A stretch of DNA of 32,081 nt from Bacillota bacterium (GTDB lineage: Bacteria > Bacillota > UBA4882 > UBA10575). Positions 9,688 through 27,703 of this stretch are shown piece by piece. The DNA is taken from the NCBI GenBank assembly GCA_012735135.1, contig JAAYHY010000134.1:1-32081 (forward strand), in the 5' to 3' direction. The position numbers and the translations under genes are program-made. The notes beneath the pieces were generated by a model. The model did no database searches. It worked only from the letters and a program-made list of their open reading frames with translations, and was not told where the DNA came from. Position 1 is the stretch's first letter. Every line of letters begins with the position of its first letter.

Positions 9688-9714
9688 AGAGCCCCTTCCG
9701 GGGCTCTTTTTTTT
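9688..9714 (+). terminator. Intrinsic terminator after nfnB
   Basis: AGAGCCCC, TTCC, GGGGCTCT form a perfect 8-bp stem followed by seven T. Confidence 0.95.
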
Positions 9715-9748
9715 GCCAATCGCCAAAATCCCTATCCATTCTTCATCG

Positions 9749-9856
9749 GGGTCGAAGGGTGTTTCCTTGCTTCAGTGAATTTCTTCGACTCTTCTAAACT
9801 AGGCTTCGGTTGATAGCCGGCCACCGCCTTCAAGGTTGTCGTCTCCGCCGGCTACC
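9749..9856. repeat. Intergenic element, copy A
   Basis: The core 9760-9831 aligns with 16045-16115 by eye at roughly 70% identity and one indel. Shared blocks in order are TGTTTCC, CAGTG, TTTCTT, GCTTCG, TTGA and ACCGC. GGGTCGAAG (9749-9757) can pair with CTTCGACTC (9783-9791). A second inverted repeat, GATAGCCGGC (9812-9821) with GCCGGCTACC (9847-9856), lies behind it. The element lies between converging genes and has no T run, so it does not look like a terminator. Short open stretches read on the reverse strand but are interrupted and unlike any protein I know. Confidence 0.6.
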
Positions 9857-9888
9857 GCTAGTGTGACTTCAAGGATGAGGCGATAAAA

Positions 9889-10920
9889 TCAAAGGCTATT
9901 TTCAAGGTACAAAGTAACCGGCTCCGTCCAGATGCTACTATTCCCGCCTTGGTCAAGACTGCTGAGGGCGTAAATCAAGCGGCCGTCGAAAAAATCACCC
10001 GGCGAGACGGTTTCCGTGAAGGAATGGGTATCTTTATCCACTTGGTGGTGGAGTTTGAGCACACCTTCCTGATTTGAACGGTAGATGTTATAAGCCAACA
10101 GATCATCTTCCGCCACCGGATCCCAACTGAGGTAAACTTGATCCGCAACCAAGTTGACGGTAAAGTTTTCCGGGGTAGCCGGGTTGGAGTCGATTACGGC
10201 GTTAATGATCAAGCCCGCATCAGATTCTAGAAAAACGGAGGTAACTTTTCCAGAACGGACATCAATAGTGCCATAGCGACAACCGTAGATAGCGCCGGTT
10301 ATTTGGGGGATATAAATTTCCGTTTCATAGGTTCCTTCCGCCAGCTTAATCTCCTTGCTGTTCTTGAGGTAACTGCCCTCTAAATGCAGGTCAAAAGGGG
10401 TTCTCCTGTTATTGCTCGGATCTTCATGAACATAAAACTTTCCACTGGTCACTGTATAACCTTTCTTCTGCAGAAGCGAGAGATCCACCGTGACCATAAC
10501 CCGTCCGGGTGTGGGTTTAATCATCAACACAGCTTCAACGGTCTTTCCCGGTGGAATCGACCGGGTGTCCTCGCCGTAGAAGATAATATCGTTTTCCCTG
10601 TCATAGCCGTTGACTTGAATCTTCCAGGTCCCGGGATACAAGGAATCAAAGGTCACCACATGATCCCCCTGGTAGGGTTGGATCACTTTCTTTTCGGATA
10701 ATTGCTTATTGGTGAGAATGACCTCTAGTTTCTCGATCTCACTATCCTTGGCCAGCAAAGAAAATTCCGGCCGGGTTTGGGCTTGTTCCGCCTTGCTGAT
10801 CCGAAGGTGGAGTCTTCCCGGGTCTTTTCCGGGAAAGTAGGGTTTGGGTAGACAGCCGCCGCTCATGAGCAGGCCGGTTACGAGAAAAGGGAGAAGAAGC
10901 GCCCATCTTTTTAAAACCAT
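9889..10920 (-). CDS. Putative lipoprotein with C-terminal fibronectin type III-like domain
   Basis: The 343-residue product begins with a basic, hydrophobic export signal ending MSGGC (cysteine at about 23), a slightly unusual lipobox. The middle is beta-rich and resembles carbohydrate- or surface-binding domains, with GTWKIQVNGYD at about 100. The last 95 residues, from PATPENFTVN through YLSWDPVAEDDLLAYNIYR, look like a fibronectin type III domain. I do not recognise a catalytic motif, so a specific function is not assigned; a surface scaffold or binding protein is likely. The ribosome site is weak (GGGGTG). It lies downstream of the reverse-strand amidase gene but is separated from it by a terminator, so it is probably transcribed separately. 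Confidence 0.7.
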   Translation of the reverse strand: MVLKRWALLLPFLVTGLLMSGGCLPKPYFPGKDPGRLHLRISKAEQAQTRPEFSLLAKDSEIEKLEVILTNKQLSEKKVIQPYQGDHVVTFDSLYPGTWKIQVNGYDRENDIIFYGEDTRSIPPGKTVEAVLMIKPTPGRVMVTVDLSLLQKKGYTVTSGKFYVHEDPSNNRRTPFDLHLEGSYLKNSKEIKLAEGTYETEIYIPQITGAIYGCRYGTIDVRSGKVTSVFLESDAGLIINAVIDSNPATPENFTVNLVADQVYLSWDPVAEDDLLAYNIYRSNQEGVLKLHHQVDKDTHSFTETVSPGDFFDGRLIYALSSLDQGGNSSIWTEPVTLYLENSL

Positions 10921-13698: not shown

Positions 13699-14370
13699 TT
13701 AATCTTTCCGTAGTCCGTAAGTCTCTTCCACATTTTGGGTAAAGATAATCCCGTAACCCGGTTGGTCAATATGAAGTTGGGCCCGGATATGCGTGACAAT
13801 GCCTTCGGTGAGCTGATTTTCGCAGAGAATCAGAGCAATATCTTTTTCCGGCTCGATTTCCATGCCAAACAATTTAATGGACTTATGAATACCGGATCCT
13901 CGAGCGTGGATGATGGTTCCACCTTTAGCTCCCTTTTCTTTAGCCGCATCGATGGCTGCTTCGCCTTTTCCTTTATCCACAATGACAAAAATCGCGTTGT
14001 ACATGGGTTTCTTAACACCTCTGCTCTCTTTAAACGATTGGTCTGGAAAATCGTGGGATCCAAAAAAATTTACCACCGGGATGCTGAAGGCGATCCCATG
14101 GTTGGGTTTGTCCAAGGAGAAATCACTATTTATACCGATCAGCGCCTGCTTGGCTACGTTTTTCTCTGCCACCATCAACACAATTTCTTTACGGATTTCC
14201 GACAATGAAAGAAGATCCAAGAGGCGGCTGTGTACACTTCCTTTACCTAAGAGAATCGTTCCTCCGGTAACGCCGTAGTGCTTCGCACGGGATAAAATTT
14301 TACTGCCTTGACCATAATTGGCGATCACATAGATCAGAGAGAACTCCAGTGGTTCCCGTTGGTTATCCAT
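13699..14370 (-). CDS. Tandem PII-like signalling protein
   Basis: The 223-residue protein contains two copies of a PII (GlnB)-like fold. Each has a core strand run (SLIYVIANYGQGSKILSRAKHYGVTGGTILLGKGS in outline, then NAIFVIVDKGKGEAAIDAAKEKGAKGGTII) and a GGTI..(G/R)G nucleotide-loop motif. PII proteins bind ATP/ADP and small effectors and often gate a neighbouring membrane protein. Here the gene overlaps the end of a DUF1538 gene by eight bases, so it very likely regulates that protein. ATG at 14370 is better placed behind AAGGAGGGG than the TTG at 14379. The uridylylation-type T-loop of GlnB is not evident. Confidence 0.8.
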   Translation of the reverse strand: MDNQREPLEFSLIYVIANYGQGSKILSRAKHYGVTGGTILLGKGSVHSRLLDLLSLSEIRKEIVLMVAEKNVAKQALIGINSDFSLDKPNHGIAFSIPVVNFFGSHDFPDQSFKESRGVKKPMYNAIFVIVDKGKGEAAIDAAKEKGAKGGTIIHARGSGIHKSIKLFGMEIEPEKDIALILCENQLTEGIVTHIRAQLHIDQPGYGIIFTQNVEETYGLRKD

Positions 14371-15850
14371 TGGGATCAACCCCTCCTTGCGCAGATTTCA
14401 CTTTATAAATATAACCCAAAAGCTGAAGCGTGATCAAAGGAGTTAAGGCCACCATGGCGATGACGCCAAAGCCGTCAAGGAAGACATTGGCGCCCTCGGT
14501 TGCCTCCGCCACCCCTTGGGCAAAGGACAGGATAAAGGTGGCCGTCATCGGTCCGGAAGCTACACCGCCGGCATCAAAGGCGATGCCAACGAATAACTCG
14601 GGAACAAAATGGGTCAGGAGAATGGCGAGGAAAAACCCGGGTAACAGATAATGCCAGAGTTGGATGGCCGGGGTGATGATCCGGAGAATGGAAAGGGCGA
14701 CCGCCAAACCAACCCCGATGGAAAGGGCAACCAGGACCACTTTTCGCTTGACGTAACCGCTGGTTACTTCCTCGATTTGGGTGGTTAAAACGTAAACGGC
14801 CGGTTCAGCGATGACCGTGACCAAACCCAGAACTAAGCCGATGAATACTACCAAAGGCTGGCTAAGGGAAGCCAACCGGTAACCGGCTAAAATACCCACC
14901 TCTAAGAAACCCGCTTGGACACCTGTGAGAAAGAGGACTAACCCGATGAAAGTATAAAGCAGACCTTTGAGGATACGATGGGCGGCTTTTTTCGGGAGTT
15001 TAAAGATGAACTTGTCGCCGAAGTGAAAGAGAAGAAGGAGTGGAAAAAGGGCCAAAAAGGAATCCCAGGCGTTGGGCGGGAGTTTGGCCAGAAACGGGGC
15101 CAGCAGGGAAGTGGATTCCGTAATAGCCAGTGTAAGGCTGCCCACAATTCGGTCTGTATTGGAAAGAATGCTCGTGAGGGTAACTGCTATAATTGGACCG
15201 GCAGAGATAATACCGACTAAACCAAAACTTCCACTTTCGGAGGCCAGACTATCCTTGTTCAGAGAAGAGATTCCCAAAGCCAACGCCAGGACGAAAGGTA
15301 CGGTCAAAGCGCCGGTCGTCGCGCCAGAAGAATCAAAGGCAATGGCTAAAAACTCGGGAGAAGTATATAAGGATAAAAAGAAAATGACGGTATAGGCTAT
15401 GGAGAACACTTTGGATAAGGCAAAATTGTAGAGGGTTCTTATAAAACCGACGGCCAGCATGAGGGCGATACCCAGGGACACGACAACGACGATGGCCATC
15501 TTTGGGATCTGCCCCGCGGTAACCATGTCAACTTGTCCGGCTAAAACATGGAGATCCGGCTCGGCGATGGAGATCATAAACCCTAAAAGTAAGCCGGCGA
15601 CGATCACAACCTTTATTTTATTCGTTTTGGCCAAGGTTTCACCGAGCATCGAACCGATGGGAGTAATTCCAAGGTCGACCCCGAATAAAAAGATGGCCAA
15701 GCCCAAAATGATCAAAAAGGAGCCCAGGAGAAACCGGACGAGGAGCGGAGCCTCGAAAGGAGTAAGGGTGAAATGCAGGATGAGAACGATAATTGTAATT
15801 GGAAGTACCGTGGATAAAACTTCTTTAAATTTGGCGCTTAGTGCGTTCAA
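14363..15850 (-). CDS. DUF1538 family membrane protein, two repeats
   Basis: The 495-residue protein has many hydrophobic segments arranged as two related halves. Each half carries a motif of the type AEPxxxVLxxQVxxVT (AEPDLHVLAGQVDMVT in the first, AEPAVYVLTTQIEEVT in the second) and a second of the type AFDxxGxxxGxxT (AFDSSGATTGALT and AFDAGGVASGPMT). This is the DUF1538 duplication, probably an inverted- or tandem-repeat transporter. The substrate is unknown to me. The start is TTG with AAGGAAG ten bases upstream. The overlapping PII-like gene suggests control by energy or nitrogen state, by analogy with AmtB-GlnB and SbtA-SbtB. Confidence 0.87.
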   Translation of the reverse strand: MNALSAKFKEVLSTVLPITIIVLILHFTLTPFEAPLLVRFLLGSFLIILGLAIFLFGVDLGITPIGSMLGETLAKTNKIKVVIVAGLLLGFMISIAEPDLHVLAGQVDMVTAGQIPKMAIVVVVSLGIALMLAVGFIRTLYNFALSKVFSIAYTVIFFLSLYTSPEFLAIAFDSSGATTGALTVPFVLALALGISSLNKDSLASESGSFGLVGIISAGPIIAVTLTSILSNTDRIVGSLTLAITESTSLLAPFLAKLPPNAWDSFLALFPLLLLFHFGDKFIFKLPKKAAHRILKGLLYTFIGLVLFLTGVQAGFLEVGILAGYRLASLSQPLVVFIGLVLGLVTVIAEPAVYVLTTQIEEVTSGYVKRKVVLVALSIGVGLAVALSILRIITPAIQLWHYLLPGFFLAILLTHFVPELFVGIAFDAGGVASGPMTATFILSFAQGVAEATEGANVFLDGFGVIAMVALTPLITLQLLGYIYKVKSAQGGVDPNG

Positions 15851-15998: not shown

Positions 15999-16115
15999 AC
16001 TGGCGACGATCTTTATGTGGAGCCCAATGGCGGCGACAGGATGATGTTTCCGCACGCCAGTGCTTTTCTTGGTCTATTCTTAGCTCAGCTTCGTTGAAAG
16101 TAGGTAACCGCTTTC
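15999..16115. repeat. Intergenic element, copy B, with stem-forming sequence
   Basis: Positions 16045-16115 correspond to 9760-9831. GACAGG (16035-16040) can pair with CTTGGTC (16068-16074) at the same place as the stem in copy A. Alternatively, or as a pseudoknot, ACTGGCG (15999-16005) pairs with CGCCAGT (16055-16061) and TGTGGAG (16016-16022) with TTCCGCA (16048-16054). The wobble pairs work only in RNA read from the plus strand. Confidence 0.55.
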
Positions 16116-16217
16116 TGGATTAAATATGGCAAGTATGGATAAAATAAGTAATAAATTATGTTGACGGATCCCAATTAGCGGGAAAAGAAAGAAGCGGCCC
16201 TTTTCATAAAAGAGCTA

Positions 16218-16246
16218 TTGTTTTATTTAATTAAACGTCATAGAAT
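16218..16246 (+). promoter_or_regulatory. Promoter of murC
   Basis: TTGTTT, 17 bases, TAGAAT. Transcription would begin near 16253, which rules out the earlier in-frame start at 16218 and supports the TTG at 16296. Confidence 0.5.
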
Positions 16247-16295
16247 AGAAAATGTGGAAAAACAGGGAGGATTGGCCGAGAAAGGACGGATCAAC

Positions 16296-17666
16296 TTGAA
16301 ACCAGGTGATCATCTTTATTTTATTGGCATTGGTGGCGCACGCCTCAGCGCCCTAGCCAAGATTATGCTGGAAAGCGGTTACAAGGTTACCGGCTCGGAC
16401 CGGACGGCCGGGCATAATACGTTGGAATTAGAGGCTAAAGGCGTAAAAATCTTTTACGGACACAAGGCGGACCAGATCACCGATGATCTTGATGCCGTGA
16501 TTTATACCAACGCCGTCGGCGAAGAAAATCCGGAACTAGTGGCGGCTAAAGCGAAAGGGCTTCCTCTCTATGAAGGAGCAGAACTTTTAGGCGCGATCAT
16601 GAAGGAAAAAGGAATGGGGATCGCCGTCGCCGGTACCCACGGAAAAACCACGACCACGGCGATGATTGCTTTATTGTTGATTAAAGGTGGAAAAGATCCC
16701 ACTGTCGAGGTGGGCGGGGAGATGAAAGAGCTTCTGGGGAACCACCGGACCGGAAAGAGCCCATACTTTGTGGTAGAAGCCTGTGAATTTCGCCGTTCCT
16801 TCCTTTATCTATCGCCCCGGATCGCTGTCATTACCAACGTGGATTGGGATCATCCCGATTGTTTTCCGACGGCCGGTGCGGTGGTGGAATCTTTCCAGGA
16901 ATTCATAAGATTGGTGCCTCCCGATGGAAAACTGGTGTTCTGGCAGGATGATCCCCATTTAACGCAATTACTGACGGCGGCGCAAGCGCCGGTGACAACC
17001 TTCGGCCTTACCTCCGCTGCCGATTGGTATTGTACGGAGATTGAAGCAACCGCGCCGTTAGGCGTCAAAGGGAAACTGCACCGGAACGGAGTTTACCTAG
17101 GAGAGTTGATCCTGCAAGTCCCGGGTGAACATAATTTGCGGAATGCCATGGCGGCCTTGGCAGTGGCGACGGAAATAGGAATTCCGGTAGCCGACGGCCT
17201 TAACTACCTGAAAACCTTTACCGGCGTGCGGCGCCGTTTTGAAATAAAAGGGGAAGTCGGTGGTGTGGTGGTGATTGATGATTACGCCCATCATCCGGTG
17301 GCAATCCGGAATACACTGGCTACGGTAAAAAAACAATATTCCGCCGGCCGGGTTTGGTGCGTTTTCCAACCACACCTGTACAGCCGGACGAAACACCTTT
17401 TCCACGACTTCGCCCAGGCTTTTACTGATGCCGATATTTTGGTTCTGGCCGATATCTACGCCGCCCGGGAGGCCGATCCGGGGGATATCTCCAGCCGCCA
17501 TCTGGCGGAGGAGACCAGGAAATATCACCCGGATGTCCGCTATATCGGAGATCTGGCGGCTATTAAAGAGCATCTGATCGTCCAGACGCGACCGGGAGAC
17601 TTAGTGCTGACCATGGGAGCCGGGGATGTTTTTAAAGTGGGTGAGGCTTTTCTGGGAGCACGTTAA
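16296..17666 (+). CDS. murC: UDP-N-acetylmuramate--L-alanine ligase MurC
   Basis: MurC adds L-alanine to UDP-MurNAc with ATP, the first amino-acid step of peptidoglycan precursor synthesis in the cytoplasm. The 456-residue protein shows the Mur ligase plan: UDP-binding FIGIGGARLSALA near the N-terminus, ATP loop GTHGKTTTT at about 112, EACEFRRSFL, ITNVDWDHPD, DDYAHHP at about 327, FQPHLYSRT and the closing TMGAGDVFKVG. The usual IGGIGMS is IGGARLS here, a variant in the UDP site. TTG at 16296 with AAGGA upstream is preferred over starts 8 or 26 codons earlier. It stands alone, outside any division-wall cluster, so a second murC elsewhere or a dispersed gene are both possible. Confidence 0.9.
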   Translation: MKPGDHLYFIGIGGARLSALAKIMLESGYKVTGSDRTAGHNTLELEAKGVKIFYGHKADQITDDLDAVIYTNAVGEENPELVAAKAKGLPLYEGAELLGAIMKEKGMGIAVAGTHGKTTTTAMIALLLIKGGKDPTVEVGGEMKELLGNHRTGKSPYFVVEACEFRRSFLYLSPRIAVITNVDWDHPDCFPTAGAVVESFQEFIRLVPPDGKLVFWQDDPHLTQLLTAAQAPVTTFGLTSAADWYCTEIEATAPLGVKGKLHRNGVYLGELILQVPGEHNLRNAMAALAVATEIGIPVADGLNYLKTFTGVRRRFEIKGEVGGVVVIDDYAHHPVAIRNTLATVKKQYSAGRVWCVFQPHLYSRTKHLFHDFAQAFTDADILVLADIYAAREADPGDISSRHLAEETRKYHPDVRYIGDLAAIKEHLIVQTRPGDLVLTMGAGDVFKVGEAFLGAR

Positions 17667-21222: not shown

Positions 21223-21315
21223 GGATTAAACATAAGGTTTATAGGCTTTCGTAAGGAAGAGTTCGCCAACGCAGGCTTCCGCAGCTTAAGCCAAGGGAGG
21301 AAGAGGCAAAAGCCG

Positions 21316-21343
21316 GGGGAGTCGACAAAGAGCGTAGGCATTT
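21316..21343 (+). repeat. Short repeated element, copy 1
   Basis: GGGGAGTCG, eight variable bases, CGTAGGCATTT; the same arrangement occurs at 31493-31520. It lies 59 bases before the isocitrate dehydrogenase start. The codons in the frame of the preceding gene read GES, three variable residues, VGI and soon a stop. Confidence 0.6.
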
Positions 21344-21401: not shown

Positions 21402-22481
21402 TTGGCTTATCGCGTTACCCTAATCCCGGGTGATGGGACCGGGCCCGAACTGACCGCCGCTACGAAAAGGGTGATCGAGGCGACTGGTGTACCCATTGAA
21501 TGGGAGATCCAAGAGGCGGGGATCGATGTGCTGGCGGAGAAAGGAACCCCCCTCCCCGACGAGGTGCTGGCTTCGATTCGCCGGAATAAGGTTGCTTTGA
21601 AGGGGCCGATTACGACACCGATTGGAACCGGGTTCCGCAGCGTAAATGTGGCGTTACGGCAATCCCTTAATCTCTTTGCCTGCGTGCGTCCGTGTAAATC
21701 CTATCCCGGCGTGCGCTCCCGCTACACCGGTATTGATTTGGTTCTGATCCGGGAAAATACCGAAGACCTTTACGCCGGCGTCGAATTTGATACGGGCACC
21801 CCGGAAGCCAAAGCCATTATTAAGATGGCGCCAGCCGGGAAGATCCATCCGGAGGCTGCCCTTTCCATTAAACCGATTTCCCGGGCGGGAAGTGAACGGA
21901 TCATCCGTTACGCCTTCGAATATGCGCGCCGCCATGGCCGGCGGAAGGTGACGGCGGTGGCGAAAGCCAATATTATGAAATTCACCGACGGCCTTTTTTA
22001 CAAGGTCGGCCGGGAAATTGCCCAAGAGTATGCAGGGGAGATTGAATATAATGAAGTCCTGGTGGATGCCCTCTGTATGCAACTGGTCCAGCGCCCGGAG
22101 AATTTTGATGTCCTGGTCCTTCCCAATCTTTACGGGGACATTATTTCCGATTTATGCGCCGGTCTGGTTGGTGGCTTAGGCGTCGCGCCGGGGGCCAATA
22201 TTGGGGAGGAAGCCGCCCTCTTCGAGCCGACCCATGGCTCGGCGCCCAAATATAAAGGGCTGAATAAGGTGAATCCGTGCGCCATGATCTTATCCGGTGT
22301 TTTAATGCTAAGACACTTAGGGGAAACCGACGCCGCCGACCGTCTGGAACAGGCGGTGGCCGCCGTGATTCGGGAAGGCAAGGCGGTGACCTATGATCTG
22401 AAAACGGATCGGAATGATCCGACGGCGGTTGGGACCAGTGAAATGGCCGATGCCATCATTGCGAAATTAAAAGAAAACTAG
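21402..22481 (+). CDS. icd: Isocitrate dehydrogenase (short, isopropylmalate-dehydrogenase-superfamily type)
   Basis: The enzyme oxidises and decarboxylates isocitrate to 2-oxoglutarate. The 359-residue protein has IPGDGTGPE, the isocitrate-type phosphate motif SVNVALR at about 79, [23 protein letters not shown], the metal-site [13 protein letters not shown] and [15 protein letters not shown] at about 278. SxNxxLR argues for isocitrate rather than isopropylmalate. The coenzyme loop carries K and Y where NADP-dependent E. coli enzyme has K344/Y345 and NAD enzymes have D/I, so NADP use is suggested despite the short scaffold. A TTG start follows AAGGAG. The product is the substrate of glutamate dehydrogenase. 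Confidence 0.9.
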
Positions 22482-22504
22482 TTAAGCGGTCCAGGTTTTA
22501 CTTC

Positions 22505-22528
22505 CCCGGCGTTTGCCGGGTTTTTTTT
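22505..22528 (+). terminator. Terminator after icd
   Basis: CCCGGC, GTTT, GCCGGG and eight T. Between it and the capA end lie two small inverted repeats (CGCTCG 22546-22551 with CGAGCG 22567-22572; AGTTGT 22574-22579 with ACAACT 22585-22590) without T runs. Confidence 0.95.
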
Positions 22529-22591
22529 AGTTGAAATACGCCTGTCGCTCGTTTAACCAACATTTTCGAGCGGAGTTGTGCAGGACAACTA

Positions 22592-23770
22592 CTAGAAAAA
22601 GGGCGGTTGCAGTTGTTTAAGCCCCCCCGGCCAGCCCAAAAGGATACTTTCGGTATCGGCCCAAACCTCTTGGAATTTCTGGTGGTAGGAGGCGGGCAAG
22701 GAGGTAGTTTCAATTTCTTCCGGGGGTGGCACCCTCAGAACCCGGTAGCCGTTACGTTCTTTGGCCACCCACAGGGGGGTGCAGGCGAGAAGTTGGATCT
22801 CGATGCCCGGTTGGAGTAATTTTTTTTGTAAGCGCAAGGTGAGCATTAACCCACAGTCGCTGTAACGCCAGCGTTGATTGGAGAGGAAATTCCCCAGCGA
22901 ATAGGCGAGAATACAGGTTTTCAGATGATTACTGAAAGGATCCTTCACGACAACTTTTTCCAGGGGCCGGATCACATGCACATGGCTGCCGAGGATAATA
23001 TCGACGCCCAAGGCAAAAAGGCGTTTACAAAGCTGTTGATCGCCCGGGGAAGGATAACGTTGGTACTCTTCCCCGGTATGCAGCGCCATAATAATCCCGT
23101 CAACACCAGCATTTCTTAGTTGGAGGATCTCCCAAGCGATTTTATAATCGTTAAAGGTATTGAGGGCCCATTTTTGGTTGCGGGGCGGTGATAAACCATT
23201 GGTCAAGGTGGTGTAGGAAAAGAAGGCAAGCTTTAGTCCGTTGATTTCCACCAAGGAATAGGGTTTTTCTTTCACGGTGCGCCGTGTTCCGGTGGCTTTC
23301 AGGCCAGCCGCGTCCAAAGCGGAAAGGGTGTTGATAACCCCGCTAACTCCTTGGTCCAGGGAATGATTATGGGCGGTGAAGACTAAATCAAACCCAGCCC
23401 AACGGAGAGCCTCCGCCAGCGGAGCCGGGGTATGGAAACGGGGATAACCGGACAAGCGTTGATAATTGGTGGTCAGTACCGTCTCTAAAACACCGACGGT
23501 GAGATCGGCCGCCTCTAAGAGAGGTCTAATCTCCTGAAAAATGGGGCGAAAATTATAGTTTTGCTCCGCCACCGAAAAAGCGGAGTTCACGACCGGCATA
23601 TGCATGACCAGGTCACCGACAGCGGTCAGTGTGATGACGGGCGGGAACGGTTGATCCCGGCCGGCGGTGGCGAGGGGGGTAGTCGGGAGCAGATTTAGGG
23701 CGGCTACGGTAAGAAAAACGAAGAAAGCAAAGAGCCGGTGGTGTTGGGTTTTAGGACCGGATCGAATCAT
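22592..23770 (-). CDS. CapA/YwtB family exported metallophosphatase-like protein
   Basis: The 392-residue protein has an N-terminal hydrophobic export segment (LFAFFVFLTVAALNLL) and a CapA (PGA_cap) domain: TAVGDLVMH, FTAHNHSLDQG, LHTGEEYQ and GSHVHVIRPLE, the metal-binding histidine and aspartate clusters of this calcineurin-like fold. Members take part in poly-gamma-glutamate or capsule export, but many are of unknown role, and no pgsB/pgsC lies here. ATG at 23770 follows GAGGTG; a 69-codon upstream extension shows no family similarity. The 198 bases up to the next gene hold no recognised site. Confidence 0.87.
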   Translation of the reverse strand: MIRSGPKTQHHRLFAFFVFLTVAALNLLPTTPLATAGRDQPFPPVITLTAVGDLVMHMPVVNSAFSVAEQNYNFRPIFQEIRPLLEAADLTVGVLETVLTTNYQRLSGYPRFHTPAPLAEALRWAGFDLVFTAHNHSLDQGVSGVINTLSALDAAGLKATGTRRTVKEKPYSLVEINGLKLAFFSYTTLTNGLSPPRNQKWALNTFNDYKIAWEILQLRNAGVDGIIMALHTGEEYQRYPSPGDQQLCKRLFALGVDIILGSHVHVIRPLEKVVVKDPFSNHLKTCILAYSLGNFLSNQRWRYSDCGLMLTLRLQKKLLQPGIEIQLLACTPLWVAKERNGYRVLRVPPPEEIETTSLPASYHQKFQEVWADTESILLGWPGGLKQLQPPFF

Positions 23771-27597: not shown

Positions 27598-27695
27598 AAA
27601 TACTCTCGTTGCTTGATCTTGGTCACGGGTAGCGCGTAGAAATGATCGGCTTTGCTTGACTTCCACCGCCGGAACCGAATGGTGTTCTCCGGCAA
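27594..27695 (-). CDS. Possible 33-residue ORF overlapping a repeat-like region
   Basis: A TTG-started ORF of 33 codons reads MPENTIRFRRWKSSK and ends KIKQREYF; its frame is open upstream to about 27735. There is no clear ribosome site, and part of it coincides with a diverged match to intergenic elements A and B. It is given at low confidence because the open frame may be a by-product of that element. Confidence 0.15.
   Translation of the reverse strand: MPENTIRFRRWKSSKADHFYALPVTKIKQREYF
27618..27669. repeat. Possible diverged third copy of the intergenic element
   Basis: CTTGGTC, GGCTTTGCTTGA and CCACCGCC recall CTTGGTC, GCTTCGTTGA and ACCGC of copy B and GGCTTCGGTTGA, CCACCGCC of copy A, but spacing differs by up to 11 bases. 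A nearby inverted repeat GCCGGA (27668-27673) / TCCGGC (27688-27693) lies next to it. Confidence 0.3.
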
Positions 27696-27703
27696 CAGCG
27701 AAA

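Follow-up and report, generated by a model that had tools for sequence, protein, structure and literature searches.

The question raised by this locus is why two intergenic blocks that lie 6.3 kb apart should carry the same motifs in the same order. Both are located in the window, by which we mean the whole 32,081-nucleotide stretch of Bacillota DNA that was analyzed, and the initial annotation described them as a recurring unit of ~72 bases, about 70% identical by eye and too ordered for chance. Alignment of positions 9760-9831 (copy A) with 16045-16115 (copy B) bears this out: the 72 aligned columns contain one gap and are 70.8% identical, and the local score is 28, whereas none of 1000 dinucleotide-shuffled pairs scored above 15. 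The gene context had also been read correctly, with converging genes flanking copy A and diverging genes flanking copy B. The neighbors of copy B, at window 16218-17666 and 14363-15850, are a Mur ligase gene and a divergent DUF1538 gene. The extent of the unit was misjudged, because each block is only half of a 210-bp palindrome (Table 1).

When each block was used to search its own genome (2.56 Mb, 161 contigs), many more copies were found, and those on contigs C12, C32, C37, C49 and C67 reach ~210 bp. We refer to this unit, which consists of a left arm, a middle and a right arm, as LMR. Copy A is 80% identical to the full-length LMR on contig C32, and the block of copy B ends at 16119, where synteny with a relative restarts. 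In intact LMR, two imperfectly complementary arms, with outer ends CCGGGGCAGAATGGTGTT ... AACACCATTCTGCCCCGG, flank a conserved two-hairpin head. The ends of full-length copies form an inverted repeat (GCCGGGGCGGAATGGTGTT / AACACCATTCCGCCCCGGC) that is complementary at 19 of 19 positions in L002 and 17 of 18 in L003, and the arms of such copies are 94-100% complementary. Among 17 full copies, conservation is 91.8% in the head and 91.7% in the left inner arm, and ~80% at the outer ends. Short derivatives with identical ends form units of 61-125 bp (e.g., on contigs C161, C124, C140 and C53). There is no open reading frame shared across copies, and a coding palindrome like the Rickettsia RPEs was rejected on this ground.

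Table 1. LMR, R2 (a second hairpin repeat, see text) and associated features in the window.
Feature	Position	Strand	Basis
Copy A, left half of LMR palindrome	9743..9835	+	nhmmer 62.9 bits; covers 4-96 of the 212-position profile
Copy B, left half of LMR palindrome	16030..16120	+	nhmmer 56.4 bits; covers 6-98 of the 212-position profile
Terminator-like hairpin (GAGCCCC/GGGGCTC, then T run) at end of upstream gene; copy A lies just 3'	9690..9720	+	read from sequence
R2 left part, directly abutting copy A	9829..9897	+	profile match 34.1 bits
Second R2 hairpin copy; lacking in syntenic relative G006	21263..21328	+	profile match, gap alignment
Possible LMR outer-arm remnant, 36 bases, weak	27666..27701	+	nhmmer 11.1 bits, E 0.005
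LMR-free intergenic gap; G006 counterpart has full-length LMR, positions 2-212	22473..22593	.	synteny, gap alignment

Further copies were thus present both in the genome and in its relatives. At E≤1e-4, the own genome has 33 LMR matches; two genomes of the sister genus g2 have 31 and 28, the congener G006 has 16, and seven further members of the family have smaller numbers. Among the genomes searched, LMR is confined to this one family of uncultured Bacillota: 29 genomes of the class were searched, the thirteen outside the family had no match, and a wider set of 40 relatives kept to the same family limit. The LMR arm pattern gave 56 matches in the own genome vs 3 with the reversed control, and in the window it matches at 27669 with 1-3 mismatches. 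Plasmid, phage and viral collections contained no LMR match, and a phage or plasmid origin was set aside for this reason. In Rfam, no family matched either block, nor any part of the window at gathering score, and LMR itself drew no match at E≤1 in the ten loci examined. The L302 spacer (G006:C25, orthologous to the L086 site) is filled with tandem heptamer-like repeats (CGACGAG/TGACGAG), and many LMR right ends are trailed by similar strings, ACGAGCGACGAG.

R2 is a separate short hairpin of ~75 bp, GTAGTCGCTCACGCCGGCT ... AGCCGGGTGAGTCGAC, which starts with GTAG and has a ~30-base loop. Its left-arm pattern gave 50 matches in the own genome, ~135 in G012 and ~90 in G011, and the reversed control matched almost nowhere; G012 and G011 belong to genera that are poor in LMR yet rich in R2. 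In 20 cases R2 stands next to LMR in the same orientation (10 upstream, 10 downstream); no case on the opposite strand was seen. The two repeats form mosaics, which include copy A and the R2 that abuts it. In G001, the site of copy A (L178, G001:C119, near 102600-102900) holds a different insert, made up, in order, of an outer end resembling that of LMR, a pair of strong hairpins, each with GATAGGATG behind it, and R2.

Orthologous sites differ in what they carry. Across its 32 kb, the window is syntenic with G006:C29, which lacks copies A and B but carries a full LMR opposite the LMR-free gap of the window; R2 is found in two G006 gaps where the window has none. The syntenic stretch thus records both gain and loss of the repeats. 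At another site, a full LMR immediately follows the stop codon in G003, G004 retains no more than the right arm and its flank, and no LMR is found in G000, G001, G005 or G007. Halves can therefore result from the loss of an arm, which explains copies A and B. Most left halves end between profile positions 47 and 130 of 212, with only 1 of 31 extending past 130. LMR truncates near its center, losing one arm, and partial copies are commoner than full ones. On a tree, six of the seven full own-genome copies fall together, with weak support (82/83), and the own-copy label changes 2 times, compared with 6.5 when labels are shuffled, from which it follows that LMR spread within this lineage. A full-length LMR lies upstream of the glmS ribozyme (L018 1823-1976, 99.4 bits), in the spacer that separates glmS from the gene before it. 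The copy before glmS has an upstream flank in common with a G002 copy, so it shares its site with that copy and is older.

We then considered what the symmetry of LMR represents. Full-length LMR folds end to end into a long imperfect hairpin with the two-hairpin head (-73 kcal/mol, z -12), and the window copies alone fold no clearly better than shuffles (z -1.4 and -0.3). The initial annotation had proposed a local 7-bp stem in each block. Such a stem can be drawn in copy A and, bulged, in copy B, but it is not a feature of the family: across 26 own-genome left arms, 48.8% of cells were paired, within the 22.9-55.5% obtained when the same stem was slid by 1-3 columns, and its outer pairs fail in 19 of 24 copies. 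The arms that had been paired locally find their partners in the far arm of the palindrome. As the local stem is not shared by the family, the T-A to A-T swap offered as evidence of pairing is most likely a coincidence. In the long fold, by contrast with the local one, 93.3% of cells are paired over 61 pairs, and 20 pairs have changed on both sides, compared with 6.0 in shuffled and 2-6 in slid controls, in a set of copies that are related to one another. The RNAalifold covariation term is near zero (-0.33), and the argument for covariation therefore rests on the pair counts.

Covariation of this kind can be produced by DNA as well as by RNA, and the two were separated by the mismatches. A constraint on one RNA strand would tolerate G-T (as G-U) and not A-C. 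In LMR, the two kinds are equally frequent, at 26 and 30 cells (p 0.69) in 22 and 20 columns, a count that omits one fixed G-T column. The wobble pairs thus do not favor a plus-strand RNA, as had been suggested; their parity with A-C indicates strand-symmetric decay, which points to a palindrome of DNA and not to a selected RNA. The covariation may instead reflect the history of the source copies that spread, or correction between the arms.

Our best explanation, to which we assign a probability of about 0.7, is that LMR is a palindromic (fold-back) mobile DNA element, non-autonomous and mobilized in trans, of which A and B are decayed halves. The dispersed copies in the genome and in relatives support the original preference for a mobile or independent element over a leader of a single gene, and LMR is most likely a small passive mobile element. 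It would have spread by a transposase supplied in trans, which, by analogy with IS200/IS605- or REP-like chemistry, probably acts on hairpins of single-stranded DNA that replication forks expose. Insertion by IS200/IS605 elements leaves no target duplication. A route through single-stranded hairpins would explain the palindrome, an orientation linked to replication, and the lack of visible target duplication. The copies would now be drifting neutrally between genes, and any effect on host mRNA would be incidental.

The search for a mobilizing enzyme covered both Y1 transposases and transposons bounded by LMR. Y1 transposase (PF01797) is absent from the own genus and from g2, the LMR-rich species, and is present only in two other genera. 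The sole LMR carrier with PF01797 is G012, which has a single LMR copy and a broken IS200-like gene. This gene was rejected as a RAYT/IS200 partner, as it contains in-frame stops and the nearest R2 copy is ~1.2 kb away. No pair of LMR arms encloses a gene in the 1.5 Mb read, and an autonomous transposon with LMR ends was set aside because neither the arm pattern nor the arm-pair search in this 1.5 Mb found one; the genomes are drafts resembling metagenome bins, so a transposon could be missing from them.

Among the alternatives, we regard it as rather unlikely that LMR is kept as RNA, in the form of a long hairpin 3' of genes that stabilizes mRNA or marks cleavage, like BIMEs, Correia (NEMIS) and ERIC. 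This idea is favored by the covariation of the long fold and by the direction of the copies, since 71 of the 85 LMR and R2 copies at tandem-gene sites run with the genes and so follow the upstream gene. LMR is also often ≤20 bases from a stop codon, and occurs inside apparent operons, for instance in the spacers that precede dnaJ and the glmS ribozyme. However, equal G-T and A-C mismatches would not be expected of a constraint on one RNA strand; partial copies exceed full ones in number, and LMR is absent from orthologous sites. Moreover, orientation tracks GC skew even where genes converge or diverge: 22 of 30 copies at such sites follow the local skew (p 0.016), as do 20 of 24 where skew is >0.06. 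With four genomes pooled, 94 of 113 copies follow GC skew, a figure partly confounded with gene direction. Tandem sites at which gene direction and GC skew disagree split 7 to 4, and at most other sites the two are confounded, so that the link to replication is only suggestive. To this extent, the orientation of LMR, with the upstream gene and along the apparent leading strand, suggests replication-linked insertion.

We consider it unlikely that LMR and R2 constitute one modular fold-back system, inserting in fixed orientation to the fork, in which an enzyme unlike the known Y1 transposases would recognize the branched head and not the ends. A classic MITE, whose outer inverted repeats are recognized by a DDE transposase that makes target duplications, would fit the inverted ends and the size of LMR, as well as the shorter derivatives with the same ends. 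This reading is nevertheless improbable, given that the ends are less conserved than the head, that no arm pair encloses a transposase in the 1.5 Mb, that a GC-skew orientation bias is not expected, and that no target duplication was seen, at sites where orthologous intergenic DNA is too diverged to place exact junctions. Finally, a ~72-base small RNA or RNA motif built on the local stem is very improbable, as that stem, though drawable in A and B, is broken in most of the 26 copies, and the blocks, each half of a longer unit, fold by themselves no clearly better than shuffles.

Returning to the mobile palindrome, LMR accounts for the puzzling pair of intergenic blocks and provides an uncultured family of Bacillota with a lineage-restricted set of long palindromes that apparently has no name yet. 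It appears to be a new, apparently undescribed MITE/REP-like family of a well known kind. Because its orientation appears to follow the replication strand and no Y1 transposase is detectable, LMR offers a test case for the spread of palindromic repeats. It also carries a warning, in that covariation in palindromic DNA repeats can pass for RNA structure, and the count of G-T vs A-C mismatches separates the two.

Compared with known systems, LMR differs from structured RNAs of the Rfam type in matching no covariance model and in having no excess of G-U over A-C. Integron attC sites were considered because the copies follow co-directional genes, and were judged unlikely since LMR is dispersed among ordinary genes and not arrayed. 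The IS200/IS605 elements have subterminal hairpins, and IS608 and ISDra2, which likewise use hairpins, are documented to insert into the lagging-strand template (PMC6006769). LMR resembles them in that its orientation appears to follow the replication strand, and departs from them in that LMR-rich carriers have no TnpA and no autonomous copy with LMR ends was found. MITEs with long inverted arms, such as Correia/NEMIS, ERIC, QMITE and Chunjie, are noncoding, 100-400 bp long and have inverted ends; they are intergenic, include many truncated copies and can sit in transcripts (PMC10969869). Like them, LMR is short and noncoding, with terminal inverted repeats and many dispersed copies. Its head and inner arms (~92%) are better conserved than its outer ends (~80%), unlike a typical MITE, and it has no sequence match in Rfam or in plasmid or phage records. 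REPs are 20-40 bp long and associated with RAYT (Y1) genes, and the REP/BIME/REPIN repeats of the GTAG superfamily are abundant intergenic palindromes that lie downstream of coding regions, mostly between co-directional or convergent genes, and form mosaics (PMC3733652, PMC3116915). LMR differs from REPs in its length of ~210 bp, in having no unpaired GTAG tag, and in the lack of a RAYT (Y1) gene in LMR-rich species, and R2 has the GTAG but is ~75 bp long with a ~30-base loop. The mosaic habit of R2, its GTAG start beside a palindrome and the bias to co-directional and convergent spacers do, on the other hand, resemble those of REP/BIME sequences (PMC3733652).
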